Below are positions 3,927-50,000 of a DNA stretch of 64,000 nucleotides, piece after piece. Positions within the stretch are counted from its first letter, which is position 1. Each line of letters starts with the position of its first letter. The stretch is from positions 62,001-126,000 of the forward strand of contig JAEUSP010000136.1 of assembly GCA_016788565.1 (NCBI GenBank), given 5' to 3'. The notes beneath the pieces are model-generated. The model was not told the origin of the DNA. It ran no database searches and was given only the letters and a program-made list of their open reading frames with translations. The stretch is from Chlorobiota bacterium (GTDB taxonomy: Bacteria; Bacteroidota; Ignavibacteria; OLB7). The position numbers and the translations under genes were made by a program.

Positions 3927-6900
3927 TTACCGCCATGTTCCGCCAGCATAGACAAACATTCGGGAGCCGTTGGCTGGAATGCTTACTGCCGGTGTGGCCA
4001 CGTCAATGCCGTCGTTCGGGTCATCGTTATAGACCCAGATGACTTGACCCGATGATGCTGATGCTGGCAGCGTCAGGTTTGGATCGTTTCCAGCACCGGT
4101 TAAATCCACCCCGTTGCTGGCTATCACCACAATGGCCACGTTGTTATCAACCGCTGTCAGCGCGCAGTTGCTTGTTCCGCAGGCGGTGAACGATTGCGTG
4201 GAAAGAAGAACACGCCCGGCCGAGATGTTCACCCCAACAGCGTTGGTTCCAGCAACCGAAACTGCAATGCCAGTGTTGTTATCCCCTCCGGTTCCGGTCA
4301 TGTTCACATCAATTCCGGTGGCGTTGGTGGCCGTGCCGCCGCTTCCGCTAAAATCGCCGCTGCTTGTTACCGACAGCACCGTTTTGTTGATGGCATCGGT
4401 AGTGGTGTTGGTGGCATCGTTATCCACCACTGCGGTTGTTGTGCTTGCGGTTTTTGCTCCGGTGATATTGAAGTTCGCCGCCTGCCCCGCCCCGCTGTTG
4501 GTGATATTGAACAACGTGCTTGCGCTGCTGGTGGTGCTGCTGAAGGGGAGCGTTAGCTGATCCTTCCAAAATGTTGTTGCCGAATCTATGCCGTTTGTGG
4601 TTTGAATGGCCAGCACTTGCCCTACCGATCCCACTACTGCTGGCAACACGTAATTCCCATTATTGGATACTGATGGCGCACGCAAACCGATGTACTGCGT
4701 CCCCGTGCCGCTCGGTTCTTGGAACCGAAGGTCCCGCGCATTGTTATCGCTGTTGGTCATGGCGATGCGGGCATTTTCAGCGATGAGGAATGTGGAAGCA
4801 AACGTTTGATTTGCGGTCCACGTATTGCTGTTGCCAAGATTGATTCCCAACGGGCTACCTATTGTTCCATTGCCGGTCAGGGTTGCGTTATGTGTAACGG
4901 TGCTAAGCCCGCTTGCATCCGCCCACTCCAACGTTGCTGCGGTTGCTGTTGGCGTGGGGGATGCGGCAATAACAAGTGCTTGCCCAGCGGTTCCGTTGGT
5001 TGCCGGAAGCGTGTAGGTGATGTCGTTGCCTTGCGTTTGCGCTTTGAACGCAGTGTAGTTAGCAGTAGCATTGGGGAATGCACCAGCCCCGCTGTACCCC
5101 TCGAAGAACCGGAGTTCGCTTGGTGCGTTATCGTTGTTGGCAAGCCAGAGATCGGTGTTGCCGAAGACGGCGATGTCCGAGGCGGAGATTGTCATCGGGA
5201 GTGTGCCGCCGCTGTTGTTGGCGTGGTAGCCGAAGCTGCGGGCGGCAGCGGAAGTAAGCGTTAGGCCGCGACCGCCCGGGATGGCGGAGTAATCGCCGGC
5301 GGCTGTGTCGCTGCGCCCGCCCCCCGCTGCGGAATACGCCCCCGAAGCAACGTTGCTAGCACCACCACTGACTGTAGCAGAGTTATTAGAAGCTGTGTTG
5401 AATTGGCCGCCACCCACTGTCGAGCTACTCCCCGTTGCCATGTTGTTTTGCCCACCACCCGCCGTGGAATAGGTCCCCAACGCGGTGTTATTAACACCAC
5501 CATCAACCACAGAATTTTCTCCCGATGCCGCATTCGAGCTTCCCCCGCCAACGGTTGAGTAATCATCCGATGCGGTGTTTCCCGAGCCACCACTTACGGT
5601 TGTCACAATCCCCGATGCCTTATTTCCGGCACCACCACTAACTGTTGATCTGGTACCCGATGCTCTGTTCCCATAGCCACCACCCACCGTTGAATAATTC
5701 GCCGATGCTGTGTCGTTGAAACCGCCACCCACCGTTGAATAATCCCCCGATGCCATGTTGAGATAGCCACCACCCACCAGTGCATAATTCCCTGATGCCG
5801 TGTCACCATAGCCCCCCCCCACCGTTGAGTATGATGTTGAGGCCAAGTTGGCAAACCCTCCGCCCACTACCGTGTACGTTCCTGATGCCCTGTTGCTTAA
5901 GCCCCCAGCCACCACTGCATAATCTGCGAACGCCTTATTGTTATTGCCCCCGCTTATGGTTGCGTAGTTTCCTGTTGCCGTATCAATGTAGCCCCCAGCC
6001 ACGGTTGTATGCGTTCCCGATGCCACGTTGAAAAGGCCACCACCCACTGTCGAGTTATTCCCCGATGCCGTGTTGGTATTGCCCCCCGCCACCACCGTAA
6101 CGGCTCCGGAAGCTGTGTTGCCTAAGCCCCCACTTACCGTCGAAAAACCTCCCGAAGCTATGTTGCCAGTTCCCCCTGCCACCGTGGCATATTGCTTATC
6201 GCTGACGGTTCCTGCGTTGTCGCCAGCACGGTTGTTTTGGCCACCACCAACAATTCCATAGTTATCCGTCACCACGTTCGTTCCACCGTTGGCTCCACCG
6301 CCAGCAATCGTTGCTCCAACCACGCCCGCCGTCACGCTGTTCCCGTTGAAGCCGCCGATGATGTTCGCGCTGGTGGCGTTCGGTTCAAACCGCATCACTC
6401 GCCGGCGGCCTTCGGTGGCGGTGCCAGCATTATCTACCCGAATCTCGAAGGCTTGGTTATCGGTGGTTCCCAAGAAATTCGTTGCCGGATTTGTGCTGGC
6501 GTTGCCGGTTAGACTCCAATTGCTGCCGGCTGCTGACGTTGTCCATTCCAACGTTGCAGCGGTTGCTGTTGGCGTGGGGGATGCAGCAACGGCCAGCACT
6601 TGCCCAGCAGAACCGTTGACGGCCGGAAGCGTGTAGGTGATATCACCCGTTTGCGTTTGCGCTTTGAACGCAGTGTAGTTAGCAGTGGCATTTGGGAATG
6701 GACCAGCCCCGCTGTATGCCTCGAAGAACCGTAGCTCGCTGGGGTTGCCATCGTTGTTGGCAAGCCACAGATCGGCGTTGCCGAAAACCGCTACGTCGGG
6801 GGTGCTGATGGTCATCGGGAGCATGCCAGCGCCGTTGTTGCTGTTGAACCCGAAACTGCGCAGCGCGCTGGCATCCAGGGTCATTCCGCGTCCGCCGGGG

Positions 6901-9900
6901 ATTGCGCTGTTGGGCCCGGCCGCGCTGTTGCCGCTGCCACCACCAACGGTGGAGTTCAGCCCCGTCGCGCTGTTGTTAATGCCACCGCCCACGGTGGTTG
7001 CGGTCGCGCTGGCGGTATTGCTTTCGCCGCCGGAAACAGTGGAGCGGTCGCCGCTGGCTTTGTTTTTGAAGCCGCCGCCAATGGCTGCAATGGAGCCGGT
7101 GGCCGTGTCGCTTTCGCCGCCAGCGATTGCGGAGCGGTAGCCGCTGGCGTAGTTGAAGGCTCCGCCGCCAATCGCTGCATCGCTTGCACCAACAATAGTC
7201 CGGTTGGATGAGCCTGAGCCGATGAACGACCCCGCCGCCGCAGCGTTGTTCTGGAAGCCGCCGCCAATCGTGGCATACGGCGCGCTGGCGGTGTCGCTTT
7301 GGCCGCCACCAACGGTGGCGTAGTTGCCAGTGGCCCCGTTTGCACGCCCACCAGCCACGGTGGCAAACTCGCCGGTGGCATCGTTATCAATGCCGCCGCC
7401 AACAACACCGTAGTTGTTGGTTGCCGTATTGGCAGCGCCGCCAACCACCACCGAGCGGTAGCCGCTGGCCACGTTGGTGTAGCCGCCGCCAACAAACGCC
7501 CACTGGCCGCTGGCGGTGTCGTTCTCGCCACCAACCACAATCGCCATGCTGGCACTGGAAAGGTTGTTTGAGCCGCCGCCAATAAAGCCGCTGTTTGTGG
7601 ATGCTCTGTTCTGAAGCCCGCCAGCAATTGTTGTATAAATCCCGGTTGCGCGGTTGGTGTTGCCACCACCAACTGTGGAATACTGGCCGCTTGCGGTGTC
7701 GCTGCGGCCGCCAGCTACGGTGGCATACTGATCAGTGGCAGCATTATTCTGGCCGCCACCAACAGTTGTGGAAACGTTGGAAGAGATGTTGTTGGTGCCG
7801 CCACTCACTGTAGAGTTATCCCCCGAAGCACGATTGTTCTCGCCACCGCCGATAAATGCTTTAGGCCCTGATGCTCGGTTATCAATGCCACCAACAATCG
7901 AAGCATAGTCTGCCGTAGCCTTATTCCGCAACCCACCCACAATCCCTGCCCACTGGCCGCTGGCGGTGTCTCGTTCGCCGCCAGCCACAACGGACATATT
8001 GGCACCGGAAAGATTGAGTGCACCGCCGCCAACAACGCTGCCATTGTTGGATGCGCGGTTGTCTAACCCGCCCGCTACCGTCCCATACGCTCCGATTGCA
8101 CGGTTAATGCTGCCGCCACCAACAAAGGAGTTTGCCCCGCTTGCGGTGTCGTTTTGGCCGCCGCTTACCACTGAGTATTCCCCGCTGGCAACGTTGTTGA
8201 ATCCACCGCCAACAGTAGCATAGAAGCGGTCGGATGTTGTTCCGGTGTTGTCGCCGGCGCGGTTGTTGCGGCCACCGCTTACCACGCCGTAGTTATCCGT
8301 CACCAGGTTGGTGCTGCCGTTTTCTCCGCCGCCAGCAATCGTTGCTCCAAAAACCCCGCTGGTTACGCTGTTGCTGTTGAACCCGCCGATGATGTTTGGG
8401 CTGGTTCCGGTCGGCTCGAACCGCATCACCCTCCGGCGGCCCTGGGTGGCGATGCCACCGTTATCCACACGAATCTCGAAGGCTTGGTTATTGGTGGTTC
8501 CAAGAAAATTGGTTGCTGGATTGGTGCTGTTGTTTCCGCTCAACCCCCATGCGTTGGCGGACACGATGGAGTCGGCATCGGCCCAACTCATTACTCCGCC
8601 TGTGGTTGCTGTCAACACATCACCGCTGCTTGCCGGAGCCGAGGCTGGAAGCGTGTAGGTGATATCACTGGTTTGCGTTTGCGCTTTGAAGGCGGTGTAG
8701 TTGGCGGTGTTTGGGAATGCACCAGCGGTGTTGTACGCCTCGAAGAAGCGTAGCTCGCTGGGGTTGTTATCGTTGTTGGCAAGCCAGAGATCGGTGTTGC
8801 CGAAGACGGCGATGTCGGGGGCGGAGATCGTCATGTTGCGGTCCCCAGCCGCAGTGTTAGCGTGGAATCCGAAGCTGCGGTCGGCGGTGGCAGTTAGCGT
8901 TAAGCCATTCCCGCCGGGGATTGCGGAGTAATCGCCCGATGCTGTATCGCTGACACCACCACCTACGGTTGAGTAGAGACCCGATGCCACGTTGCTTGAA
9001 CCACCACCCACCGCCGAGGTAGCTCCCGACGCTCTGTTCCCCAAACCGCCTGCTACCGTGGCCTCAACTCCCGATGCCACATTGCCATGGCCGCCACCAA
9101 CGGCGGCATCGTTCCCCGATGCCACATTGTCATGGCCACCACCCACGGTTGCAAACGTTGCGGAGGCCGTGTTGCCCAAGCCGCCGCTCACGGTTCCGTA
9201 TGGCATATCTGCTGTTGTTCCGGCACCATCACCAGCTTGGTTATCTCGCCCACCACCAACCACTCCATAATCATCCGTCACGCTGTTGGTAAGCCCGTTG
9301 GCCCCACCGCCAGCAATCGTTGCGCCAGCCACTCCCGCCGTTACGCTGTTGCCGTTAAATCCACCGATGATGTTCGCGCTGGTTGCGTTCGGTTCAAACC
9401 GCATCACCCGGCGGCGACCTTCGGTGGCGGTTCCGCCGTTATCCACTCGAATCTCGAAGGCTTGGTTGTCGGTGGTTCCCAAAAAGTTGGTTGCTGGATT
9501 TGTGCTGGCGTTGCCAGTTAGCGCCCAATCGTTGCTGGCGGCTGGGGTTGCCCAGACGATGTTGCTGCCGTCGTAGGTAATCACTTGCGTGGCTGCCGCG
9601 CCGGATGAACTGATCTTCCCCAGGCCAATGGTGTTGTCGGCAATGTCGGCGTTGGTGATCGTGTTGTCCAGAATATCTGTGCTGGAAACAGTGTTGTCAA
9701 TAATCTCTGCCGAGCCGATGGCGTTGTCGGCCATCTCAGCATTCCCAATCGCGTTGTCCAGCATCTCGGCGTTGCCGATGGCGTTGTCATCCATTTCCGA
9801 ATTGCCCACAACGTTTGCACCGATCTCGCTTGCACCGACTGCGTTTGAAGCAATTTTGCTGGCGGTAACGGCATCGTTGGCAAGGTCAATGTTATCAACC

Positions 9901-10688
9901 GTGCCGTTCAGAATATCTGCCCCGGTGATCGTGTTGTCGGCAATCTCGGCCGAGCCGATTGCATCGGTTGCAACGGTTGGGTTTGGATAGCTTCCGGTTA
10001 AATCGCCACCAGCCGCGCCGCCCGGGTTTGGGTTCCCCCAATCAAGCGTGGCCGAAGTTGCGGTGGGAGCTGGCGAAGCTGCAATCCGCAAGGCTTGCCC
10101 CGCCGTTCCGGTGGCCGCTGGCAGTGTGTAGGTGATGTTGTTCCCGCTTTGATCCTGCGCTTTGAACGCTGTGTAATCGCTTCCGGTCCCGTTCGGTTCG
10201 TGCAAGCGAACCTCGCCTGCGGTTCCGGTGTTGCCAAGCACAAGGTTTCCATCGTTGATCTGCACCCGCCCGGTTGCCTGGATTGCTGGACCGGTTCCGG
10301 TGGTGCTGGCGGCCAACGCCGCCGCGCTGCTTCCGGCGTTGGTGATGGCGAACAATCCCGCCCCCCCGGTTCCGGTGTTCGTCAGGCTGAACAGAACGCC
10401 AGCATCGCTAACGGTTGCCGACAAGGGAAAACTGACGGTTGAGGTGACCCATGTTGTGATCCCGCTCCCATCTGTCCGCAAAAACTGCCCTGCTGTTCCT
10501 GGGTCCCCCGGAAGGGTGAGCGTCCAGGTGCTGCCAAGCGTGGGGGATTTCAGGATCAGCGGAGTAATCGGCGAGCCACCACCGGACAGGTAGAGTGAGG
10601 TGGCGTATGTTGGCTTGTAGGTTTGCGCGTTGGCCACAACGGAAGTAATCCCGAAAACAGCCGCCAAAGCAAGAAAGAAATTCTTCAT
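3927..10688 (-). CDS. Giant secreted beta-roll repeat protein (YadA-head-like), 2253 aa
   Basis: A Sec signal peptide (about residues 1-21, cleavage after VANA) precedes a tail-fibre-like N-domain. Residues about 244-360 are ten-residue repeats of the type xDNAIGNAEM. Three blocks follow, each with the same order: an entry module (RRVMRFEPNATSANIIGGF, near 425, 1428 and, as a variant, 750), a run of about 15-residue units of pattern S-T-V-G-G-G-x-x-N-x-A-S-G-x-Y (about 460-583, 782-1253, 1460-1798), and a cap (AIPGGxGLTLT... then LWLANNDNNPSELRFFE and TQTGDITYTLPA). The C-terminal about 330 residues are beta-rich and end in a small tip-like domain. The units resemble the left-handed beta-roll of YadA/Hep_Hag heads, so trimeric fibre formation is plausible (inference). 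No YadA translocator barrel, LPXTG or obvious T9SS tail is visible. It lies 42 nt downstream of its paralogue and is probably co-transcribed with it. Confidence 0.8.
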   Translation of the reverse strand: MKNFFLALAAVFGITSVVANAQTYKPTYATSLYLSGGGSPITPLILKSPTLGSTWTLTLPGDPGTAGQFLRTDGSGITTWVTSTVSFPLSATVSDAGVLFSLTNTGTGGAGLFAITNAGSSAAALAASTTGTGPAIQATGRVQINDGNLVLGNTGTAGEVRLHEPNGTGSDYTAFKAQDQSGNNITYTLPAATGTAGQALRIAASPAPTATSATLDWGNPNPGGAAGGDLTGSYPNPTVATDAIGSAEIADNTITGADILNGTVDNIDLANDAVTASKIASNAVGASEIGANVVGNSEMDDNAIGNAEMLDNAIGNAEMADNAIGSAEIIDNTVSSTDILDNTITNADIADNTIGLGKISSSGAAATQVITYDGSNIVWATPAASNDWALTGNASTNPATNFLGTTDNQAFEIRVDNGGTATEGRRRVMRFEPNATSANIIGGFNGNSVTAGVAGATIAGGGANGLTNSVTDDYGVVGGGRDNQAGDGAGTTADMPYGTVSGGLGNTASATFATVGGGHDNVASGNDAAVGGGHGNVASGVEATVAGGLGNRASGATSAVGGGSSNVASGLYSTVGGGVSDTASGDYSAIPGGNGLTLTATADRSFGFHANTAAGDRNMTISAPDIAVFGNTDLWLANNDNNPSELRFFEAYNTAGAFPNTANYTAFKAQTQTSDITYTLPASAPASSGDVLTATTGGVMSWADADSIVSANAWGLSGNNSTNPATNFLGTTNNQAFEIRVDNGGIATQGRRRVMRFEPTGTSPNIIGGFNSNSVTSGVFGATIAGGGENGSTNLVTDNYGVVSGGRNNRAGDNTGTTSDRFYATVGGGFNNVASGEYSVVSGGQNDTASGANSFVGGGSINRAIGAYGTVAGGLDNRASNNGSVVGGGALNLSGANMSVVAGGERDTASGQWAGIVGGLRNKATADYASIVGGIDNRASGPKAFIGGGENNRASGDNSTVSGGTNNISSNVSTTVGGGQNNAATDQYATVAGGRSDTASGQYSTVGGGNTNRATGIYTTIAGGLQNRASTNSGFIGGGSNNLSSASMAIVVGGENDTASGQWAFVGGGYTNVASGYRSVVVGGAANTATNNYGVVGGGIDNDATGEFATVAGGRANGATGNYATVGGGQSDTASAPYATIGGGFQNNAAAAGSFIGSGSSNRTIVGASDAAIGGGAFNYASGYRSAIAGGESDTATGSIAAIGGGFKNKASGDRSTVSGGESNTASATATTVGGGINNSATGLNSTVGGGSGNSAAGPNSAIPGGRGMTLDASALRSFGFNSNNGAGMLPMTISTPDVAVFGNADLWLANNDGNPSELRFFEAYSGAGPFPNATANYTAFKAQTQTGDITYTLPAVNGSAGQVLAVAASPTPTATAATLEWTTSAAGSNWSLTGNASTNPATNFLGTTDNQAFEIRVDNAGTATEGRRRVMRFEPNATSANIIGGFNGNSVTAGVVGATIAGGGANGGTNVVTDNYGIVGGGQNNRAGDNAGTVSDKQYATVAGGTGNIASGGFSTVSGGLGNTASGAVTVVAGGNTNTASGNNSTVGGGLFNVASGTHTTVAGGYIDTATGNYATISGGNNNKAFADYAVVAGGLSNRASGTYTVVGGGFANLASTSYSTVGGGYGDTASGNYALVGGGYLNMASGDYSTVGGGFNDTASANYSTVGGGYGNRASGTRSTVSGGAGNKASGIVTTVSGGSGNTASDDYSTVGGGSSNAASGENSVVDGGVNNTALGTYSTAGGGQNNMATGSSSTVGGGQFNTASNNSATVSGGASNVASGAYSAAGGGRSDTAAGDYSAIPGGRGLTLTSAAARSFGYHANNSGGTLPMTISASDIAVFGNTDLWLANNDNAPSELRFFEGYSGAGAFPNATANYTAFKAQTQGNDITYTLPATNGTAGQALVIAASPTPTATAATLEWADASGLSTVTHNATLTGNGTIGSPLGINLGNSNTWTANQTFASTFLIAENARIAMTNSDNNARDLRFQEPSGTGTQYIGLRAPSVSNNGNYVLPAVVGSVGQVLAIQTTNGIDSATTFWKDQLTLPFSSTTSSASTLFNITNSGAGQAANFNITGAKTASTTTAVVDNDATNTTTDAINKTVLSVTSSGDFSGSGGTATNATGIDVNMTGTGGDNNTGIAVSVAGTNAVGVNISAGRVLLSTQSFTACGTSNCALTAVDNNVAIVVIASNGVDLTGAGNDPNLTLPASASSGQVIWVYNDDPNDGIDVATPAVSIPANGSRMFVYAGGTWR
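4930..5290 (-). repeat. Capping cassette copy 1 (gene 3927-10688, block 3)
   Basis: This segment encodes the AIPGGRGLTLT...ELRFFE...TYTLPA cap and linker. Near-identical DNA recurs at about 6545-6920, 8640-8930, 11095-11435 and 14310-14665, so five copies are spread over the two tandem giant genes. The central stretch 'gttggcaagccagagatcgg' recurs with at most one or two base changes. Confidence 0.8.
9610..9965 (-). repeat. Ten-residue (30-bp) imperfect tandem repeats
   Basis: About twelve copies of a 30-bp unit encode xDNAIGNAEM/xDNTIxxADI-type decapeptides within the 3927-10688 protein (residues about 244-360). The regular Asn and Ile/Met spacing suggests a narrow beta-solenoid or fibre shaft placed between the N-domain and the first beta-roll block, as seen in some phage tail fibres (inference). 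Confidence 0.75.
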
Positions 10689-10730
10689 GGTTGATTGGTT
10701 CTTTGAAGTTGGTTGGATACTGTTCTTGGA

Positions 10731-13700
10731 TTAGTTCGTGGAGACAAGCCGCCAGAATCCGGAGGTTGCGTCGTAGATCAAGGTGGCAGTGCCGTCGGGG
10801 CCTAACGTGATATCGCCTCCGCCTGGCAACTGGAATCGGTTGGCCACCAGCGAGCTGCCGTCTTGATGCTTCAGTGTGATGTTGTTGGCACCGATATTAC
10901 ACACCACGATTTGCCGTCCATCCACACCGGCAGCAATTCCGGTGATATCAATGCCGGCTATCACCGAAGTTTCCATGCGGAAGAAGGTGGCGGTGGTGCT
11001 GAGCGAAAGATCATCTTGGTCAGCACTGAACGCGCCGCCACTGGTGTTGGTGGAGTTTGTGGCGTTGATAATGGTTGCCCCGTTGCCAACCCACTCCAAC
11101 GTTGCGGTGGTTGCCGTTGGCGCAGGGGCCGCAGCAACCGCAAGAATTTGCCCAGCCGCACCGTTGCTGGCAGGCAAGGTGTAGGTGATATTTCCCGTTT
11201 GCGTTTGCGCTTTGAATGCCGTGTAGTTGGCGGTATTTGGGAATGCACCAGCCGTGTTGTAGGCCTCGAAGAAGCGTAGCTCGCTGGGGTTGTTATCGTT
11301 GTTAGCAAGCCAGAGATCGGTGTTGCCGAAGAGGGCAATCGCGGTGTCGGCAATGGTCATGTTCCGGTCGCCCGCCGGGCTGTTGGCGTGGAAACCAACG
11401 GTACGCGGAGCATCTATCGTCAAACCGCGACCGCCGATAATAGCGGAGTACGGCCCGAACACAGTATTGCTCAACCCGCCGCTCACCACCCCAGCAATGG
11501 ATGCGCTATCAATCAGGTTGCTTCGCCCGCCACCGATGGTTGCATCCGTTGAGTTCTCGGTAATGAGGTTTCCATAACCACCGCCGATTGTGCCGTAGGC
11601 TGAACCATTGGTGACAGTGTTGGAATCGCCACCAGCAATCACCGATGACGTTGCGTTGTTCGTCAGCAAGTTCCGACGGCCACCGCCGATTGCACCGTAG
11701 GCTGAACCATTGGTGACAGTGTTGGAATCGCCACCAGCAATTACTGATGACGTTGCGCTGTTCGTCAGCAAGTTCCAACGGCCACCGCCGATTGCGCTGT
11801 ACGTTGCTCCATCACGAATGGTGTTGGAATCGCCACCAGCAATCACCGATGATGTTGAGGTGTTCATCAGCAAATTCCGACGGCCGCCGCTGATGGCTCC
11901 GTAGGTTGCTCCATCACGAATGGTGTTCGAGTCGCCGCCAGCAATCACTGATGACGTTGCGTTGTTTGTCAGCAAGTTCCGACGGCCACCACCGATTGCA
12001 CCGTAGGTTGTTCCATTGGTGATCGTGTTCGTGTCGCCACCAGCAATCACCGATGATGTTGAGCTGTTCGTCAGCAAGTTCCGACGGCCGCCGCCGATTG
12101 CGCTGTACGTTGCCCCAAATGAGACTTGGTTCGAGTCACCGCCACCGATACTGGCATTGTTCACGCTGGTGATAAGGTTCTTTCGGCCACCAACAATCGC
12201 GCTGTACATTGATCCACCGGTAATCGTGTTCGTGTCGCCGCCGGCAATCACCGATGATGTTGAGCTGTTGATTAACACGTTCTTGCGACCACCACCGATG
12301 TGAGCATATTGCGCCCCCATGTTGTTCCCATAACCGCCACCCACCGAGCCATACGATCCACCAAAAGAGAACTGGTTGGAATCGCCGCCAGCGATGACGC
12401 CATAGCTGGAACTGAAAAGCAAGTTCCGACGGCCACCGCCGATTGCACCGTAGGTTGATCCACCGGTGACAGTGTTGGAATCGCCGCCAGCAATCACCGA
12501 TAACGTTGCGCTGTTGGTCAGCAGATTCTTACGCCCACCACCGATTGCACCGTAGGTTGCTCCGCTACTAATGGCATTGGAATCACCACCACCGATTGAA
12601 GAATAAGACACGCTGGTGATAAAATTCCGACGACCGCCAGCAATCGCGCTGTAGGCTGATCCACCGGTAACAGTGTTGGAATCGCCACCAGCAATCACCG
12701 ACGATGTTGCGCTGTTCGTCAGCAAGTTCCAACGGCCACCGCCGATTGCGCTGTACGCTGCCCCAAATGAAACTTGGTTCGAGTCACCGCCACCGATACT
12801 GGCATTGTTCACGCTAGTGATAAGGTTCTTTCGGCCACCAACAATCGCGCTGTACATTGATCCACCGGTGATCGTGTTCGTGTCGCCGCCAGCAATTACC
12901 GACGACGTTGAACCGTTGATTAACACGTTCTTGCGACCACCACCGATGTGGGCATATTGCGCCCCCATGTTGTTCCCATAACCGCCACCCACCGAGCCAT
13001 ACGATCCACCAGAAGAGAACTGGTTGGAATCGCCGCCAGCGATGACACCATAGCTGGAACTGAAAAGCAAGTTCCGACGGCCACCGCCGATTGCACCGTA
13101 GGTTGATCCACCGGTGACAGTGTTGGAATCGCCGCCAGCAATCACCGATAACGTTGCGCTGTTGGTCAGCAGGTTCTTACGCCCACCACCGATTGCGCCG
13201 TAGGTCGCTCCGCTATTTATGGCGTTGGAGTCACCACCACCGATTGAAGAATGACTTACGCTGGTGATAAAATTCCGACGACCGCCAGCAATTGCGCTGT
13301 AGGTTGATCCACCGGTGACAGTGTTAGAATCGCCACCAGCAATCACCGATGATGTTGCGCTGTTCGTCAGCAAGTTCCAACGGCCACCGCCGATTGCGCT
13401 GTACGCTGCCCCAAATGAGACTTGGTTCGAGTCACCGCCACCGATACTGGCATTGTTCACGCTAGTGATAAGGTTCTTTCGGCCACCAACAATCGCGCTG
13501 TACATTGATCCACCGGTGATCGTGTTCGTGTCGCCGCCGGCAATCACCGATGATGTTGAACTGTTGATTAACACGTTCTTGCGGCCACCACCGATGTGAG
13601 CATATTGGCCGCCCAGATTGTTTCCATAACCACCACCCACCGAGCCATACGAGCCACCAGGAGAGAACAGGTTGGAATCGCCGCCAGCGATAACACCATA

Positions 13701-16514
13701 ACTGGAATTGGCAAGCATGTTCCGGCGGCCACCGCCGATTGCACCGTAGGCTGAACCATTGGTGACAGTGTTGGAATCGCCACCAGCAATCACCGATAAC
13801 GTTGCGCTGTTTGTCAGCAGGTTCTTACGCCCACCACCGATTGCGCCGTAGGTTGCTCCGCCATTCACGGTGTTGGAATCACCGCCACTGATTGTAGAAT
13901 ATGTCTCCGATGCCAGGTTCTGCTGGCCACCACCCACCGTTGCATACGCACCGTCGGTTGTGCTTCCGGCGTTGTTACCGGCGCGGTTGCTGCTGCCGCC
14001 GCCCACCACTCCATAATCATCCGTCACGCTGTTGGTAAGCCCGTTAGCTCCGCCACCAGCAATCGTTGCGCCAACAACTCCAATAGTCACGCTGTTCCCG
14101 TTGAACCCACCGATGATGTTCGCGCTGGCCGCGTTCGGCTCAAACCGCATCACCCGCCGGCGGCCCTCGGTGGCGGTGCCGGTTTCATCTACGTGAATTT
14201 CAAATGGCTCATCGTCGGTGGTTCCCAAAAAGTTCGTTCCTGCCGTTGTTCCGCCGTTGCCGGTTAGTGCCCAAGCACTGCCGCCGCCACTAACGGTTGC
14301 CCACTCCAGCGTGGCTGTGGTTGCTGTTGGCGCGGGGGCTGCGGCAACGACAAGTGCTTGCCCAGCAGTGCCGTTGGTGGCGGGAAGCGTGTAGGTGATA
14401 TCCCCCGTTTGCGTTTGGGCTTTGAAGGCGGTGTAGTTGGCGGTGTTTGGGAATGCACCAGCGGTGTTGTACGCCTCGAAGAAGCGTAGCTCGCTGGGGT
14501 TGTTGTCGTTGTTGGCAAGCCAGAGATCGGTGTTGCCGAAGACGGCGACATCCGAGGCGGAAATGCTCATGTCGCGGGTTTCACCGCTGTTGTTGGCGTG
14601 GAAGCCGAAGCTGCGGTCGGCAGTTGGAGTAAGTGTTAAGCCAAGTCCACCGGGGATGGCGGAGTAATCGCCAGAGTCTATGTTCCTAAATCCACCACCC
14701 ACCGTCGAATAATCCCCTGATGCGGTGTTGATCCAGCCACCACCCACCGTCGAATAATCCCCCGATGCCGTGTTGTCTCTGCCACCACCCACCGTCGAAT
14801 AATCCCGCGATGCCCGGTTGCGACTGCCACCACCCACCGTCGAAAAATAGCCCGATGCCGCATTGCTTCCGCCACCACCCACCGTCGAATAAATCCCCGA
14901 TGCCGTGTCATGCACGCCACCGCTCACCGTCGAATAAATCCCCGATGCCATGTTAAGCCTGCCGCCACCCACCGTCGAGTAATCATCCGATGCCGTGTTT
15001 GCACTGCCACCACTTACCGTTGAAACAAGCCCCAATGCCTTGTTGCTATTGCCACCTCCCACCGTTGAAGTATCCCCTGATGCCCTATTGAAGTTACCGC
15101 CGCCCACGGTCGAATAATCCCCCGATGCCGTGTCGTGATCGCCCCCCCCCACCGTCGAACGATCGCCCGATGCTGTGTTTCCCCCGCCACCACCCACCGT
15201 CGAATAGTCACCGGATGCCTTGTTTGTGCTGCCACCGCCCACCACTGAAGCGAAGCCCGATGCCGTATCACTCACGCCACCTCCCACGGTCGAGTAAATC
15301 CCCAACGCCACGTTCGCATTCCCACCATCCACTAGTGAATAATCCCCCGATGCCATGTTCCCATTGCCACCGCCAACTACCGAAGCTGTGCCCGATGCTG
15401 TGTTGCTGCTTCCACCACTCACCATTGCAACCAAGCCCGATGCTGTGTTGATGTTCCCACCACCCACCGTCGAAGCACCCCCCGATGCCACATTGCTTTG
15501 TCCACCACTTACTGTCGCATACGGGATGTCGCTGGTTGTGCCAAGATTGTCCCCGGCGCGGTTGTTCCGGCCACCACCAACTACTCCATAATCATCCGTC
15601 GCCACGTTCAGGTTCGCGCTTGCGCCGCCGCCGCCAATCGCCCCACCCACCGCCCCTGCGGTCACGTTGTTTCCGTTGAAGCCGCCAATCACGTTCGGGC
15701 TTGTGGCGTTTGGCTCAAATCGCATCGCCCGCACGCCGTTCACAATCACGTTCAACGGTGCGTTGCTGGTGGTTCCCAACAGGTTGTCCGTCCCGTCGGT
15801 GAATGCTCCACCGTTCCCGGTTTTCAGCCATGCCACCGCGCCAACCGCTGCACCTGCTGATCGCTTCAGCAGATCGCCGCTTGCGTCGGCAGTCACAAAT
15901 CCATCGTTGGCTCCTGGTGTCCACGCGCTTCCATCCGCCGCACCGCTGGCTGAGCCGAACCTCACGTTTGCGGTTCCGGCTGCACCCGCCACCTCCAACA
16001 TCCGCCCCGCTGTTGGTGCTGATGTTCCAATCCCAACCTCACCCGTGCTGGCAACCCGCAACCGCTCAACGCTGTTGGTCCGCACTACTAACGGTTGAGC
16101 ATCGGTGGTGCCGAGGAAGTTGGTTGCTGGGTTGGTTCCGCCGTTGCCGGTTAGGCTCCAGAACAACCCGCTCCCGGTCGCCACGGTCAGCACCGGGTCC
16201 CAGATCGGCGCGAACGTTGTGCCGATGTTGAACTCAATGGTTTTGGTATCGGTGTTGAAGATCATCAGCCCCGTTGCTGGGTTGGCCAATGCGTTGCGTT
16301 GCGCGTTGGTCATCCGTGGCATCAGGAAGCCAGCGGTGGTGGAGAAGAGGTCCAGAATTGCGGATTTGTCGGGTGTGATTGTGCCGATCCCCATGTGACC
16401 GTAGGTGTCGGTCATCGGCATTGGGCCGGGGGTTTGGGCAACTGCGCATGGCGCGACAAGGAGCAGAAGGAGGAACGAGTGAAGCGCAAGGTGCAACAGG
16501 AATGGCAGTTTCAT
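10731..16514 (-). CDS. Giant secreted beta-roll repeat protein (YadA-head-like), 1927 aa
   Basis: It has a Sec signal peptide (1-26, VAPCAVA|Q). Residues 38-100 match the Bacteroidota tail-fibre-like N-domain (YGHMGIGTITPDKSAILDL, then GFLMPRMTNAQRNAL...GLMIFNTDT). Two blocks follow, each with an entry module (MRFEPNATSPNVIGGF near 265; MRFEPNAASANIIGGF near 785), a beta-roll (about 290-615 and 815-1692) and a cap (617-705; 1694-1807). The first roll uses STVGGGxxNTASGDY units; the second uses SVIAGGDSNTVTGG / AIGGGRRNLLTNS units and contains near-perfect 216-residue tandem duplications. The C-terminal 105 residues resemble a phage tail-tip fold: IVVCNIGANNITLKHQDG, RFQLPGGGDITLGPDGTATL and FWRLVSTN. 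There is no membrane anchor, so secretion past the periplasm needs another route. It is first gene of the tandem pair, with its promoter expected in 16515-16700. Confidence 0.8.
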   Translation of the reverse strand: MKLPFLLHLALHSFLLLLLVAPCAVAQTPGPMPMTDTYGHMGIGTITPDKSAILDLFSTTAGFLMPRMTNAQRNALANPATGLMIFNTDTKTIEFNIGTTFAPIWDPVLTVATGSGLFWSLTGNGGTNPATNFLGTTDAQPLVVRTNSVERLRVASTGEVGIGTSAPTAGRMLEVAGAAGTANVRFGSASGAADGSAWTPGANDGFVTADASGDLLKRSAGAAVGAVAWLKTGNGGAFTDGTDNLLGTTSNAPLNVIVNGVRAMRFEPNATSPNVIGGFNGNNVTAGAVGGAIGGGGASANLNVATDDYGVVGGGRNNRAGDNLGTTSDIPYATVSGGQSNVASGGASTVGGGNINTASGLVAMVSGGSSNTASGTASVVGGGNGNMASGDYSLVDGGNANVALGIYSTVGGGVSDTASGFASVVGGGSTNKASGDYSTVGGGGGNTASGDRSTVGGGDHDTASGDYSTVGGGNFNRASGDTSTVGGGNSNKALGLVSTVSGGSANTASDDYSTVGGGRLNMASGIYSTVSGGVHDTASGIYSTVGGGGSNAASGYFSTVGGGSRNRASRDYSTVGGGRDNTASGDYSTVGGGWINTASGDYSTVGGGFRNIDSGDYSAIPGGLGLTLTPTADRSFGFHANNSGETRDMSISASDVAVFGNTDLWLANNDNNPSELRFFEAYNTAGAFPNTANYTAFKAQTQTGDITYTLPATNGTAGQALVVAAAPAPTATTATLEWATVSGGGSAWALTGNGGTTAGTNFLGTTDDEPFEIHVDETGTATEGRRRVMRFEPNAASANIIGGFNGNSVTIGVVGATIAGGGANGLTNSVTDDYGVVGGGSSNRAGNNAGSTTDGAYATVGGGQQNLASETYSTISGGDSNTVNGGATYGAIGGGRKNLLTNSATLSVIAGGDSNTVTNGSAYGAIGGGRRNMLANSSYGVIAGGDSNLFSPGGSYGSVGGGYGNNLGGQYAHIGGGRKNVLINSSTSSVIAGGDTNTITGGSMYSAIVGGRKNLITSVNNASIGGGDSNQVSFGAAYSAIGGGRWNLLTNSATSSVIAGGDSNTVTGGSTYSAIAGGRRNFITSVSHSSIGGGDSNAINSGATYGAIGGGRKNLLTNSATLSVIAGGDSNTVTGGSTYGAIGGGRRNLLFSSSYGVIAGGDSNQFSSGGSYGSVGGGYGNNMGAQYAHIGGGRKNVLINGSTSSVIAGGDTNTITGGSMYSAIVGGRKNLITSVNNASIGGGDSNQVSFGAAYSAIGGGRWNLLTNSATSSVIAGGDSNTVTGGSAYSAIAGGRRNFITSVSYSSIGGGDSNAISSGATYGAIGGGRKNLLTNSATLSVIAGGDSNTVTGGSTYGAIGGGRRNLLFSSSYGVIAGGDSNQFSFGGSYGSVGGGYGNNMGAQYAHIGGGRKNVLINSSTSSVIAGGDTNTITGGSMYSAIVGGRKNLITSVNNASIGGGDSNQVSFGATYSAIGGGRRNLLTNSSTSSVIAGGDTNTITNGTTYGAIGGGRRNLLTNNATSSVIAGGDSNTIRDGATYGAISGGRRNLLMNTSTSSVIAGGDSNTIRDGATYSAIGGGRWNLLTNSATSSVIAGGDSNTVTNGSAYGAIGGGRRNLLTNNATSSVIAGGDSNTVTNGSAYGTIGGGYGNLITENSTDATIGGGRSNLIDSASIAGVVSGGLSNTVFGPYSAIIGGRGLTIDAPRTVGFHANSPAGDRNMTIADTAIALFGNTDLWLANNDNNPSELRFFEAYNTAGAFPNTANYTAFKAQTQTGNITYTLPASNGAAGQILAVAAAPAPTATTATLEWVGNGATIINATNSTNTSGGAFSADQDDLSLSTTATFFRMETSVIAGIDITGIAAGVDGRQIVVCNIGANNITLKHQDGSSLVANRFQLPGGGDITLGPDGTATLIYDATSGFWRLVSTN
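12121..13900 (-). repeat. 648-bp in-frame tandem repeat array inside the 1927-aa gene
   Basis: The phrase 'acttggttcgagtcaccgcc' recurs at about 12124, 12772 and 13420, exactly 648 bp apart (216 codons). Two full units, 12121-12768 and 12769-13416, differ by only scattered single bases; the third, from 13417, is similar at first and diverges after about 13600. Each unit encodes about 14 beta-roll turns. Such long, recent, frame-preserving duplications are typical of unequal recombination. Confidence 0.9.
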
Positions 16515-20513: not shown

Positions 20514-21761
20514 ATGAACAACCTCAGCTACAACGATTTCGCCCAACAATTGGTGGCAACCAATATCATCAGCGACCCCTGGTTGAACGGTGCGGAGAGG
20601 TTTCGGTTGTCGCCAGTGGTGTTGGATAGTGTGATGTTTGACCGGCTGTATGCCGCAGCAACAGCAATCGGCCTGATGCACGATGAATTAGCAACGATCG
20701 TGTGGAACCAGCCTGAATTGCTTGATAATTATTTCCACCTTACTCCATTTCAACGTGGAATGTGGTTGGCTTCTGGCGGGCGGTGGCACGGCATTGCGCG
20801 AATTGATTGTTTTATTCTGGAGGATGGTAGCATTAATTTTTGCGAGATGAACAGCGACACCCCAAGCGGCGAAGCGGAAACCGTAATTCTCAACCAAGTA
20901 TTGCATCATTTTCATCCAACACTATTTAATCCAAACGCCGAATTTGAGACGCATTTTGTTCGGATGATCGCGGCCTGTGCCGCCTCGCTTCACCCCACTG
21001 CTGCTTCGCTGCCGCCAACTATCGGAATTTTATACCCCACCGACCTTCCCGAAGACCTTTCGATGATTGCGCTGTACCAGCAATGGTTCCAAAAACGTGG
21101 CTACCAAGTGGTGCTTGGCTCACCTTATAATCTTCACCGTTCGGCCAACGGGAACATTACTCTGTTTGATATTCCAATTCAAGTGATGATTCGCCATTAC
21201 AAAACCGATTGGTGGGGGGAACGGCTCCCAATTTGGTTAGACGAAGCACCATTTAACGACCCCGACCCACTAAGCCAGCAGTTGCTTCCACTGCTGGAAG
21301 CCGATGCCGAAGGATATGTTGCCGTGGTAAATCCATTTGGGTCGGTGCTGACGCAGAATAAATTATCAATGGCTTTTTTTTGGGATCAGATAGAACGATT
21401 TTCCGCAGCCACGCAGCAGGCTATCCGAACATATTTGCCGGAGACGCGGCGGTTAGATGACATGCCACTGGGAATGCCGCAACGGGATCACTGGGTGCTG
21501 AAATCGGATTATGGATGCGAAGGTGATGAAGTGGTAATTGGCCCACACGTTAGCGACGCTATCTGGGCGGCATCGCTGCGGGAATCGGTTCCTGAACGGT
21601 GGGTTGCGCAACGCTATTTCCAGCCGCAGTTGATAGATCAGGCAGTGCCAAATTTTGGAGTTTATCTACTTGCCGGCCAACCCGCTGGAATTTTCACCCG
21701 ATTAAGCAAGCAGGCCACCGATTATTCTGCCGTTGCTGCGCCAACCTTTGTGCGGCTGTAG
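20514..21761 (+). CDS. Glutathionylspermidine synthase-like ATP-grasp ligase
   Basis: The 415-residue protein matches the GSP_synth family (YgiC/YjfC/C-terminal Gss type). The conserved pre-ATP-grasp signature reads IDCFILEDGSINFCEMNSD followed by TPSGEAE. The C-terminal half has HWVLKSDYGCEGDEVVIGP, an ATP-binding loop, WVAQRYFQPQ, and FGVYLLAGQPAGIFTRLS typical of the family's end. Family members form an amide bond by way of an acyl phosphate; the substrates of YgiC-like stand-alone members are mostly unknown, so I do not assume glutathione or spermidine. There is no N-terminal amidase (CHAP) domain. ATG 20514 is used because the family homology starts at once. It is the first of four closely spaced plus-strand genes and is divergent from a STAND ATPase. 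Confidence 0.85.
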   Translation: MNNLSYNDFAQQLVATNIISDPWLNGAERFRLSPVVLDSVMFDRLYAAATAIGLMHDELATIVWNQPELLDNYFHLTPFQRGMWLASGGRWHGIARIDCFILEDGSINFCEMNSDTPSGEAETVILNQVLHHFHPTLFNPNAEFETHFVRMIAACAASLHPTAASLPPTIGILYPTDLPEDLSMIALYQQWFQKRGYQVVLGSPYNLHRSANGNITLFDIPIQVMIRHYKTDWWGERLPIWLDEAPFNDPDPLSQQLLPLLEADAEGYVAVVNPFGSVLTQNKLSMAFFWDQIERFSAATQQAIRTYLPETRRLDDMPLGMPQRDHWVLKSDYGCEGDEVVIGPHVSDAIWAASLRESVPERWVAQRYFQPQLIDQAVPNFGVYLLAGQPAGIFTRLSKQATDYSAVAAPTFVRL

Positions 21762-21830
21762 AAAATAATTATCCAGACATCCAATCATCACTCAACTCTT
21801 TGTTCCTCCGCTCACACACATTTCCTGCGT

Positions 21831-22664
21831 ATGCCTGCTCCGTTCGATCCCGTTGCCTACCGCTACGATGCCGATTTTACCAACACCCCGCTGGGGCGGC
21901 GGCAGCGTGAGCTTGTGCAGCGGTATTTGGGGCCAATAATCCACCCCGGAATGCGTGTGCTGGAGCTTAATTGCGGAACCGGCGAAGATGCGCTCTGGAT
22001 GGCCGCCCGTGGTGCTCACGTCACCGCCACAGATATTTCCGCAGGGATGCTGGAGGTTGCTTCCAACAAAGCAACGAACGCTGGGACAACTATCACGTTC
22101 CGGCAGCTTCGGCTGGAAGATGTTGGCTTGCTGGAACTTCCGCCGGATCACCCAGGCTTTGATTTGGTTTTCTCCAATTTCGACGGCCTAAACTGCCTTC
22201 CAACTCTCGATTTTTTCCCCGATGCGGTTGCCCGTCTGCTGCGCCCGGGGGGCGGGGTGATGGTGGTGTGGATGAACCCAATGTGCGCAGCGGAGCTTGT
22301 TGGATTTTCCCTGCGCGGGCGTTTCGGAATGGCAGTCCAGCGGCTGCGGCGTGGCGGTGTGGCCGCCCACATTGGCGATGGCGAAACGGCCCAAACGTGG
22401 TTTCATTCAATCTGGAAAGTGAAACGGGCGTTCGCTAAACGCTTCCGGTTCCGTACCATTGCAGCAATCGGGCTAACAACGCCGCCAACGCTGATGCGGG
22501 ATTGGTACCACCGCCACCAGCGGTTGTTCCGGTGGTTTTTCCCGATTGAGGAACGATTGATGGGGCTTTTCCCGTTGAATCGGTTTGGCGACCACACGTT
22601 GCTCCACTGCCTGCTGAAGGATGATGCTCCAAGATCAGCTTCTTCGGGGGCCAATAAGCCATAA
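21831..22664 (+). CDS. Class I SAM-dependent methyltransferase
   Basis: The 277-residue protein has a Methyltransf_11/25-type Rossmann core: motif I VLELNCGTGEDALWMAARG (43-61), the ribose-binding acidic residue D68 in VTATDISAGML, motif IV LVFSNFDGLNC, and the post-core LLRPGGGVMVVWMNP. The Asn in ELNCGTG replaces the usual Gly/Ala. The last 100 residues are Arg/Phe rich and probably form the substrate cap. Its substrate cannot be told from sequence. It lies 69 bp after the ATP-grasp ligase and 33 bp before the next gene, so co-transcription is likely. It could modify a small molecule made with the ligase and the radical SAM enzyme (inference). Confidence 0.85.
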   Translation: MPAPFDPVAYRYDADFTNTPLGRRQRELVQRYLGPIIHPGMRVLELNCGTGEDALWMAARGAHVTATDISAGMLEVASNKATNAGTTITFRQLRLEDVGLLELPPDHPGFDLVFSNFDGLNCLPTLDFFPDAVARLLRPGGGVMVVWMNPMCAAELVGFSLRGRFGMAVQRLRRGGVAAHIGDGETAQTWFHSIWKVKRAFAKRFRFRTIAAIGLTTPPTLMRDWYHRHQRLFRWFFPIEERLMGLFPLNRFGDHTLLHCLLKDDAPRSASSGANKP

Positions 22665-46748: not shown

Positions 46749-47078
46749 ATATCTTCAGTCAAGTTTTCGGTTTCTGTGGAATGAAGCCCGCTCTTCGCCA
46801 CCACCCCACCAAAGGTTGCGCCCACCTTCCCCCTCTTCTCTTCTTCGCGTCCTTTGCGTGCCTCCCCTCTGCGTCTTTGCGTGAACTCTTCTTCGTAGCC
46901 CCCTCTTTCCCTCCCTCAAAGTTGCCACTTTTTTTCGCTCCTTCTTCAATCTTGCTTCAATCTTGGCATCAGTTGCCGGAAATCTTGGTGTGCGGGGAAT
47001 ACCTTGATAGCAGGTGATTCTCCCATGCAACGCCGATGGTTGCTGTGGAGGTTTCTTTCAGGCGATTTCAGACATCGA
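46749..47078. other. Gene-free region before the giant 3635-aa gene
   Basis: This 330-bp spacer holds a C/T-rich direct-repeat-like tract at 46848-46890 (GCGTCCTTTGCGTGCC and GCGTCTTTGCGTG), of a type common in intergenic DNA. The promoter of the giant gene should lie at about 46970-47060; no confident motif. An open frame from 47004 is in phase with the giant gene, but those 25 residues carry no signal sequence. Confidence 0.5.
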
Positions 47079-50000
47079 ATGCACACCATGCAGACTTTCC
47101 GGTACTTCTTGCAGAGCTTCGCAGCCTTCGTTTTGCTGGCAACAGTGGCGGCCGCACAAAGCAAACCCATTGTTGTGAACGTGGCGGTGATCCCCCCCTA
47201 CGCGGCCACCCTGGCCGAGTGGGATCGCCACCCTGAGCGGATCATTATCACGCTAACCAACACCGACCCCGCCACCAGCTACAGTGTCCGGCTCTCCGGA
47301 TCGTTGCAGGACAACTTGGGGGGGATAAAAGTCACCACGAACGACGACTACCCGGTAACGGCAATCACCGTTCCGGCGGGTGGAGTCCGGGCGGTGAACG
47401 GGAACGAACTGAAGATTTTCAACGCCAACGCTGTCTCCATCAGCGGCTCGGATAAGGGGACCGTGGCGCGGTCGGGGCAGCTGAACGAAGGGACCTACAC
47501 CATCTGCCTGAAAGCACTGGACCACACCACCAAAACGGAGCTTTCCCCCGCCAGCGGTTGCGCCAGCTTCACCATCCGCACGGTGGAGGCCCCGAAACTC
47601 ACCGCCCCCCCCTGCAACATGAAAGTGGCGCAGACGGTGGACCCGCAACTGCTGCTACTGCAATGGACTCCACCAGCCGGGGCCACCGGCGGAATCACCT
47701 ACACGCTGACCATGGCCGAGGTGATCCCCGACGACCGCAACCCGGAAGAAGCACTGCTGACCGCAGTCCCGCCAACCCTGTTCAAGAAGGAAGGATTGAC
47801 CGCGCCCATCTACCAGTACGGCGCGGCCGACCCACAGCTAAAAAAAGGGAAGAAATACGCCTGGCGGGTGCAAGCCATTGACCCCACCGCCGCCACCAAC
47901 TTCCGCAACGACGGCAAAAGTGAGGTGTGCACCTTCATCTATGGCGACAGCACCGAGCCGAAACCGGACGACCCCGACTGCAAGAAACCGACCTACATCA
48001 CCGCCGCCTATCCAAAGGATGACATCCGCATCCCGTACCGCTTTGTTCCGGTGATTGTGCAGTTCGCCCCCTACTGCCGCGACCTCACAAAATTCACCTC
48101 CGACTACTCCGTAAAGGACAACACTGGCAGCTCCGCTGGCAGCAAGACCCGGACTGTTGAATGGAAGCATGGCCCGTTCAACAACGCTGCCCGCCAGCCG
48201 GATATGTTTGAGAAAAACCGGGCATCCTACGTGGTGGTGGGCCCCGACCAAAACAAGAAAGTGGAGGAGCGGAAAGATCAATTTCTTTCACCGCTGAAAA
48301 CCTACTCGTGGACGGCAGATGTGGCGATCACCAAGAAAGAGGGGGAGAAAGAAACCACCACCAAACGGAAAGTCACCGGACGGTTCAGCGTTGGGATGGG
48401 CGCGCCGGTGCTGAACGAACCAGCCAACGGCGGCGCAGTGTTGCCCGATACCGTGACGCTCCGGTTCCTGACCAGCGAGCCAGTAGATAAAAGCGCGCTG
48501 ACCCTTCCGCTGGATCTAAAAGCCGAACCACGCGGGGGCGGGGCCGAGTTCTACACCATGACCGTCAACGAGAAATGGGTGCTGGAAATCGCCCGCACGC
48601 CCGACATGAAAAACCCAATCTTCCGCGACACCGGGCGCGTTGGCGGGATGCTGATTGATGCCATGTCGCCAAGCACTTCGGCAGCATTTCTGCAGAAGGA
48701 GATTTACCGCCAAGAAACCGTCCGCCCAAAGCTGACCAAAGCCGGCGAATACTACTGGCGAGTGAAGTGGTTGGTAGATCCCAACGACAACAACGACAGC
48801 ACCGGACAGTTCTACAACAGCAGTCCAGTGCAGCGGTTTGTGGTGGATCCCAACGCCAACTGCTTCAACCTTGCTGCCGAATTTCCGAAGGATAAATCGG
48901 CAATTGAGGAAGGCCGCCCAACCTTCAAAGTTCGCGTCTCCAACTCGGTGAAGCCAAATGAAATTTTGGAGGGGGAGCTTCGGGTGTGGCGCGGGAAGAA
49001 TGCAGCCGACACCACCCAAGCAAACTTGGTGCGCGACATCAATTTTTCCCGAACTCAGAAGACCGCAGGCGCGGCCATGCGCGACATGGACGGCAACGGA
49101 GTTCCCTATCTGAACATCGTGGGCGATGTGATCCATTTCCGCATCAACGATGCCGGCGTTCCGGTGGAGTTTGTGGCCAACGACAAACAGGACTACCTGT
49201 GGCAACTGACGCTGAAGCACAACACCGCCGTGCGGATGGATGGCCAAGCCTGCACCCGCGCCGCCACCGCCAGCCCGCTGTTCAGTTTCCGCAAGGATAT
49301 GGGCTGCATCGCGCTCACGAATATCTGGCCAACCGATGGCGAAATGGCAACCGACACCAGCGATCTGCTGACCCGTGCCAATAAGCCAATCCGCATGGCC
49401 AACACCAGCAAACGAACCTGGGAAATCTACGCACTGCGCCCGGGCGAGGACCCACGCAACGTGGTGCTGAAGGATGGCCGCGAATACTTCGTGCTGGAGA
49501 AAATCACCGATGATGTTTTCTCCCCCGAAGCAACAACCAGCCTGATGGCCTACAAGGTCTTGGCAATCAACAGCGATTTGCAGAAACAAGGGAAAGCACT
49601 GACGGTGGGGCAACGCTACGGCTGGCGGATGCGGCTAACCTACAACGGCAACGGGGTGTTTGCCGACGGCAGTTCCTGCGGCGAATCGGAAGCCACGGTG
49701 GAAAGCACACCAACCAGCTTTGTGTATGGTGGATGCGTCACCATCAAGAACGTGATGCCTGCCGACGGCGCAACAATCACCGACCGCGACGGCGATTTGC
49801 AAGTGCGGGTCAGCAAAGCATTCCGCATTGCCAGCACCACCATGCGCCAGTGGGAAGTGTTCGCGCTGAAAGCCGGCGAAGAAGCACGAATGGCCAACCC
49901 AACCGATGGCCGCGAATACCACAGCCTGATGCTGGCCACCGACGATGTCTATTCCCCAGAAGCATCCACAAGCCTGATCGCGATAAAGGCCCGCGCACTG

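Follow-up and report, generated by a model that had tools for sequence, protein, structure and literature searches.

The closest described counterparts of the proteins considered here belong to the MAT superfamily of Bdellovibrio bacteriovorus, published in 2024, which comprises ~20 paralogs with signal peptides and phage-like modules that are displayed at the cell surface and bind glycans (PMC10769870). In all MATs the signal peptide is followed by a conserved N-terminal domain which is rich in beta-structure and comprises ~130 aa, their tips are in some cases of the S74 type and in others non-S74 (beta-sandwich), and their attachment to the cell has not been identified (PMC10769870). Similarly, two adjacent genes of a Chlorobiota bacterium, P0001 and P0002, encode proteins which combine a signal peptide with a modular fibre containing phage-like parts, and the C-terminal tips, S74 or non-S74, are diversified across ~18 paralogs. 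In contrast to the MATs, however, the shaft of P0001 and P0002 is a long tandem beta-roll of the YadA/UspA1 type, both proteins are about twice as long as a typical MAT (~1,000 aa), and the host is a T9SS-bearing member of the Bacteroidota. The MAT entries in the PDB are C-terminal fragments, and the comparison covered signal peptide, modules and tips; membership in the superfamily, which the N-terminal domain would define, is therefore not claimed, and it is by analogy that we infer P0001 and P0002 to work like a MAT. The original prediction, which was made from the DNA sequence of the locus, had proposed a new class of fibres, but a superfamily with the same traits had already been published (PMC10769870). 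A search of the open literature, with subscription papers mostly outside its scope, yielded no paper on P0001 or P0002, which does not prove that there is none. We consider it probable that the two proteins are Sec-exported, homotrimeric and anchorless adhesive fibres, located at the surface or extracellularly, which follow the logic of the MATs and end in a variable binding tip.

The gene pair and its beta-roll shaft

P0001 and P0002 are two complete ORFs with a spacing of 42 bp within the window, i.e. the whole stretch of 64,000 nucleotides that was analysed (Table 1). By inspection of the sequence, both start with a Sec-type signal peptide ending between A and Q, as do paralogs in which the start is present, and such a cleavage site agrees with the Bacteroidetes Q-rule (PMC5837995). 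Two secreted proteins of 2253 and 1927 residues had been predicted at this position, and the intact ORFs with their signal peptides bear this out; as a whole, the observation underlying the original prediction is confirmed, while its interpretation is partly supported.

Table 1. Positions of the fibre genes, their parts and further genes in the window (residue numbers in brackets)
Feature	Position	Strand	Remarks
P0001, secreted fibre protein, 2253 aa, three beta-roll blocks	3927..10688	-	
P0001 signal peptide, cleavage after ANA, before Q	10626..10688	-	by inspection; Q-rule, PMC5837995
P0001 N-terminal region (22-388)	9525..10625	-	'TLP..GTAGQ' module, 'GGDLTGSYPNPTV', repeated 'AIGxAEIxDNxI' stretches
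P0001 block 1 (389-715)	8544..9524	-	module B + beta-roll + module A; AlphaFold model of 389-720
P0001 block 2 (716-1391)	6516..8543	-	
P0001 block 3 (1392-1925)	4914..6515	-	
P0001 stretch matching UspA1 head 3pr7 (1547-1812)	5253..6050	-	E 7.9e-25
P0001 C-terminal region and tip (1926-2253)	3930..4913	-	no library match; congener identity 88%, dN/dS 0.11
P0002, secreted fibre protein, 1927 aa, two beta-roll blocks	10731..16514	-	
P0002 signal peptide, cleavage after AVA, before Q	16437..16514	-	by inspection
P0002 N-domain (27-118), GIGT-x-x-P motif	16161..16436	-	phage homologues; weak likeness to Bd3182 (8OJN) capping loop
P0002 block 1 (119-747)	14274..16160	-	
P0002 stretch matching UspA1 head 3pr7 (374-590)	14745..15395	-	E 2.4e-26
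P0002 block 2 (748-1807)	11094..14273	-	units mostly 17 residues
P0002 tip domain (1843-1921)	10752..10988	-	Phage_depo_C PF25692, 6.6e-5, 23.7 bits
P0003, third fibre of the window, 676 aa	26252..28282	+	signal peptide, GIGT N-domain, UspA1-like head, Phage_depo_C tip over cut-off
AAA/NACHT-like ATPase, 909 aa	17742-20471	-	close to fibre pair
ORF of 3660 aa, apparently secreted	47004-57986	+	
Fic/DOC-family protein	61523-62686	+	

The repeat periodicity of P0001 and P0002 is far above chance: autocorrelation of P0001 at lag 15 is 0.231 compared to a shuffle mean of 0.096 (z ~24), and the maxima of P0002 lie at lags 34, 17 and 15 (z 19, 14 and 14). Counted by regular expression, there are ~76 units in P0001 and ~81 in P0002 (~160 for the pair), and therefore the 'hundreds' of ~15-residue units originally predicted were an overstatement as to number, while the repeats themselves are present. 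The shaft of P0001 contains three blocks of repeats and that of P0002 contains two, with a conserved non-repeat module of ~160 residues between the blocks. Like YadA and UspA1, the type Vc adhesins, the two proteins thus possess homologous beta-roll head repeats behind a signal peptide; unlike these, they stack the heads in blocks with phage-fibre modules, followed by a C-terminal tip, and do not have a C-terminal anchor or translocator. In phmmer searches of the PDB the UspA1 head 3pr7 was matched by all three fibres of the window (7.9e-25 for P0001, 2.4e-26 for P0002 and 1.2e-20 for P0003), so that the proposal of YadA-type head repeats holds (E 8e-25 and 2e-26 for the pair), and 3ntn (UspA1) and 3ult (an ice recrystallisation protein) matched far more weakly than 3pr7. 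AlphaFold modeling of residues 389-720 of P0001 as a single chain yielded short regular strands with a period of 15 residues, at a pLDDT of 84-94 over construct residues 111-180 and lower values elsewhere (shallow alignment); a predicted monomeric unrelated fold, which had been named as an outcome that would speak against the predicted fibre, did not appear. A Foldseek search of the PDB with this model gave no significant match and model confidence is partial; the fold assignment therefore rests on sequence homology and not on the model. The homology to the UspA1 head implies that the beta-roll shaft is likely trimeric.

It might also be assumed that such proteins are not adhesins but secreted structural or ice-binding beta-rolls. 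The grass antifreeze beta-roll family (PF21300) is found weakly in P0001 (E 0.0071, 16.9 of 30 bits and thus below the cut-off) and not in P0002, while the family exceeds the cut-off in the paralog L038 and 3ult is among the matches. However, UspA1 scores far better than the antifreeze roll, and the sibling proteins, with their modular tips and S74 ends, favour a displayed binding fibre. We thus regard a non-adhesive role of this kind as highly unlikely, and an ice-binding roll was ruled out based on the far higher scores of UspA1.

The surroundings of the gene pair were compared to those in a congener. There, the orthologue of P0002 is present in two parts, the C-terminal one next to the P0001 orthologue (2039 aa) and the N-terminal one stopping at a contig end, beside a gene of the AAA type; on the same contig as this part and the AAA-type gene resides the orthologue of P0003 (70% identical). 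Within the reach of the contigs of the congener, the fibre pair, P0003 and the AAA gene, which in the window encodes the AAA/NACHT-like ATPase, are hence found together again. The number of repeats is variable, with 76 units in P0001 and 58 in the orthologue, while N-regions, tips and P0003 are under purifying selection, as indicated by dN/dS values of 0.11-0.19 (0.12 and 0.11 for the N- and C-region of P0001, 0.13 and 0.18 for the N-domain and tip of P0002, and 0.19 for P0003). Nearby genes of known families are chromosomal and not phage genes, e.g. those for aconitase, a dTDP-sugar epimerase and a radical SAM protein. The window further comprises a large, apparently secreted ORF and a gene for a Fic/DOC-family protein (Table 1).

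Phage-like modules, fibre ends and the paralog family

The module between the blocks consists of two halves, A ('ELRFFE...NYTAFKAQTQTGDITYTLPA..GTAGQxL...LEW') and B ('LTGNxxTxxxTNFLGTTDNQAFEIRVD...MRFEPN'). The module profile A1 matched 72 viral loci, several of the viral ORFs with the module are tail fibres or tail spikes according to PHROGs, and one of them adjoins a phage amidase. Thus, the predicted joining of phage-fibre-type modules to adhesin heads was substantiated by the occurrence of these modules in real phage tail-fibre genes. As tblastn of one P0002 module copy against INPHARED gave no match, the sharing with phages is remote, and module profiles run against the PDB gave nothing convincing.

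The N-domains of P0001 and P0002 are unlike each other. Stretches resembling the N-terminal region of P0001 occur in three further ORFs of the same genome (L043, L044 and L045), which also possess a 'YQG' N-domain behind the signal peptide; this domain may be the counterpart of the N-terminal MAT domain and is taken as a lead only. The N-region of P0002 matches phage proteins at 2e-10 to 2e-3, among them a Pelagibacter phage tail fibre. Its GIGT motif aligns with the capping-loop region of the Bdellovibrio MAT Bd3182 (8OJN), which was the only PDB match of the profile A3; with an E-value of 2.5, this likeness is weak and serves as a hint only. A viral scan with the N-domain alignment, which is too variable, yielded nothing useful.

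With regard to the C-termini, the P0002 tip resembles the C-terminal beta-sandwich of phage depolymerases just below the Pfam cut-off: compared to the gathering cut-off of 25 bits for Phage_depo_C (PF25692), P0002 reaches 23.7 bits and P0003 31.9, and P0001 has no match. For the C-domain of P0001, searches of Pfam, NCBIfam, PHROGs, the PDB and phages gave nothing convincing. The profiles made from the two tips did not match each other, a viral scan with the tip profile showed no relatives, and tip profiles run against the PDB gave nothing convincing either; AlphaFold modeling of the P0002 tip without an alignment gave a pLDDT of 33. Tail-fibre-like N-domains and tip-like C-domains had been predicted, of which stand the difference of the ends from the repeats and the proximity of the P0002 tip to Phage_depo_C; a tail-fibre likeness of the P0001 tip, which matched nothing, is hypothetical.

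In the same genome 18 ORFs, distributed over 13 contigs, contain the module. Contig ends truncate several of them (L031, L032, L034 and L035 on C31, C134, C113 and C50), and the count may therefore include pieces of one gene; presumably the assembly breaks inside fibre genes due to the repeats. The module is present in 17 of 41 genomes (the own one and 40 relatives) and in 48 of 297 genomes of the phylum. Among 47 C-termini from the wider family in own and related genomes plus one control, Phage_depo_C was identified in 10, Peptidase_S74 in 5 and a StcE beta-sandwich in 3. For the C-termini of three paralogs (L039, L040), a self-cleaving end of the phage G2 type with a coiled coil behind it is a tentative assignment, and Pfam gave no match to them. 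A fibre block 72% identical to block 1 of P0001 was observed in L021, from a record named 'Armatimonadetes bacterium isolate SJ842', which may reflect either a mislabelled MAG or horizontal transfer.

P0001 and P0002 share the inter-block modules with phage tail fibres and tailspikes, as well as Phage_depo_C (sub-threshold in P0002, over the cut-off in P0003) and S74 in the siblings, and the common modules might point to fibres of a chromosomal prophage, a tailocin or an extracellular contractile injection system. However, P0001 and P0002 differ from phage tail fibres by their YadA-type heads, their chromosomal, non-phage context and their signal peptides. Virion fibres are assembled in the cytoplasm and are normally devoid of signal peptides. 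In addition, the genome has no phage sheath gene, and the neighbours are chromosomal in a neighbourhood that is kept in the congener. An origin as prophage or contractile-tail fibres is thus extremely improbable and was ruled out based on the signal peptides, the absent sheath gene and the conserved chromosomal neighbourhood.

Passage across the outer membrane

No beta-barrel anchor was found in P0001 or P0002. YadA_anchor is absent from the own genome as well as from 40 relatives, and an autotransporter barrel (PF03797) was not found in the own genome; the claim that no YadA anchor is visible hence extends from the two proteins to the genome and its relatives. The homology of the head repeats to UspA1 would be compatible with type Vc trimeric autotransporter adhesins the anchor of which is divergent or encoded separately. 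However, the anchor and barrel are missing to the extent just described, and at the C-termini there are S74 chaperones or tips of the beta-sandwich type in place of a coiled coil with a four-strand barrel. We hold such an adhesin to be very improbable, and a type V autotransporter was ruled out for a genome without anchor or barrel. The original prediction had also considered the fibres to be free, secreted or otherwise docked; the lack of a translocator describes the sequence and is no evidence of a free or docked state.

An anchor or export signal might instead be provided by the T9SS. At least 150 T9SS sorting domains occur over the cut-off in the own genome (150 of the 229 candidates were scored), and SprA is present in 41 of 41 genomes (the own one and 40 relatives). 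A sibling of 686 aa, L167 (G000:C107, about 20581-22638, minus strand), has a signal peptide, a GIGT-type region, S74, a coiled coil and a T9SS type A sorting domain, and the congener possesses an S74 ORF of equal length. L167 thus points to S74 fibres being made as T9SS cargo in this genome, but does not show this for P0001 or P0002. With T9SS type A cargo (TIGR04183), the fibres thus have in common the host and the S74 sibling carrying the domain, but P0001, P0002 and P0003 differ from it in having no sorting domain (TIGR04183/PF18962), while the positive control L167 was recognised. Such a domain at the C-terminus, which had been stated to argue against the original prediction, was found neither on P0001 nor on P0002, and cargo of the ordinary type A was ruled out. 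The single T9SS match in the scan of the C-termini was taken as the control, since L167 is known to carry this domain.

P0001 and P0002 might nevertheless be T9SS cargo with a sorting signal unseen by current models, by which they would be exported and perhaps anchored. The abundance of sorting domains, SprA and the example of L167 with its counterpart in the congener speak in favour of this. However, none of the 47 family C-termini has a sorting domain although the control was recognised, phage-type tips fill the C-terminus, which is the usual place of sorting domains, and co-occurrence with SprA is uninformative because SprA is universal among the 41 genomes. We consider cryptic T9SS cargo rather unlikely; this explanation refines the export step of the preferred reading, anchorless adhesive fibres, and does not replace that reading.

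Proposed adhesive fibres with a repertoire of tips

For P0001 and P0002 as anchorless adhesive fibres, the following course might be proposed. The proteins would be exported by Sec with cleavage of the signal peptide between A and Q, and would trimerise, as suggested by the homology to UspA1. The shaft of two or three beta-roll blocks of the UspA1/YadA type, which are joined by modules homologous to those of phage tail fibres, would be oriented with the N-terminal module beside the cell and the tip outward, in analogy to the MATs. At the outer membrane, the T9SS might help the fibres across despite the lack of a recognised sorting domain, given that the sibling L167 carries S74 together with such a domain. 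The tip would most likely bind a glycan, or else another surface ligand, as suggested for P0002 by the likeness to Phage_depo_C and, weakly, for P0001 by position and family. The related ORFs, at least 18 in number and diverse at their C-termini, might then represent a repertoire of binding specificities.

The question is thereby sharpened to how a trimeric fibre of ~2000 residues passes the outer membrane without a barrel or a sorting domain, and with L167, in which an S74 chaperone and a T9SS sorting domain are combined, export of such fibres by the T9SS becomes open to a direct test. It might be speculated, albeit with considerable doubt, that giant anchorless trimeric fibres are a lineage-wide feature of T9SS-bearing Bacteroidota, which reach the surface by means of a T9SS signal that is cryptic or of an outer-membrane port not yet described, and which form a MAT-like recognition repertoire outside predatory bacteria. 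If the proposed reading of P0001 and P0002 is true, the idea behind the MATs, a diversified repertoire of phage-like adhesive fibres at the surface of a bacterium, would reach a second phylum and would be extended by a YadA-type shaft.
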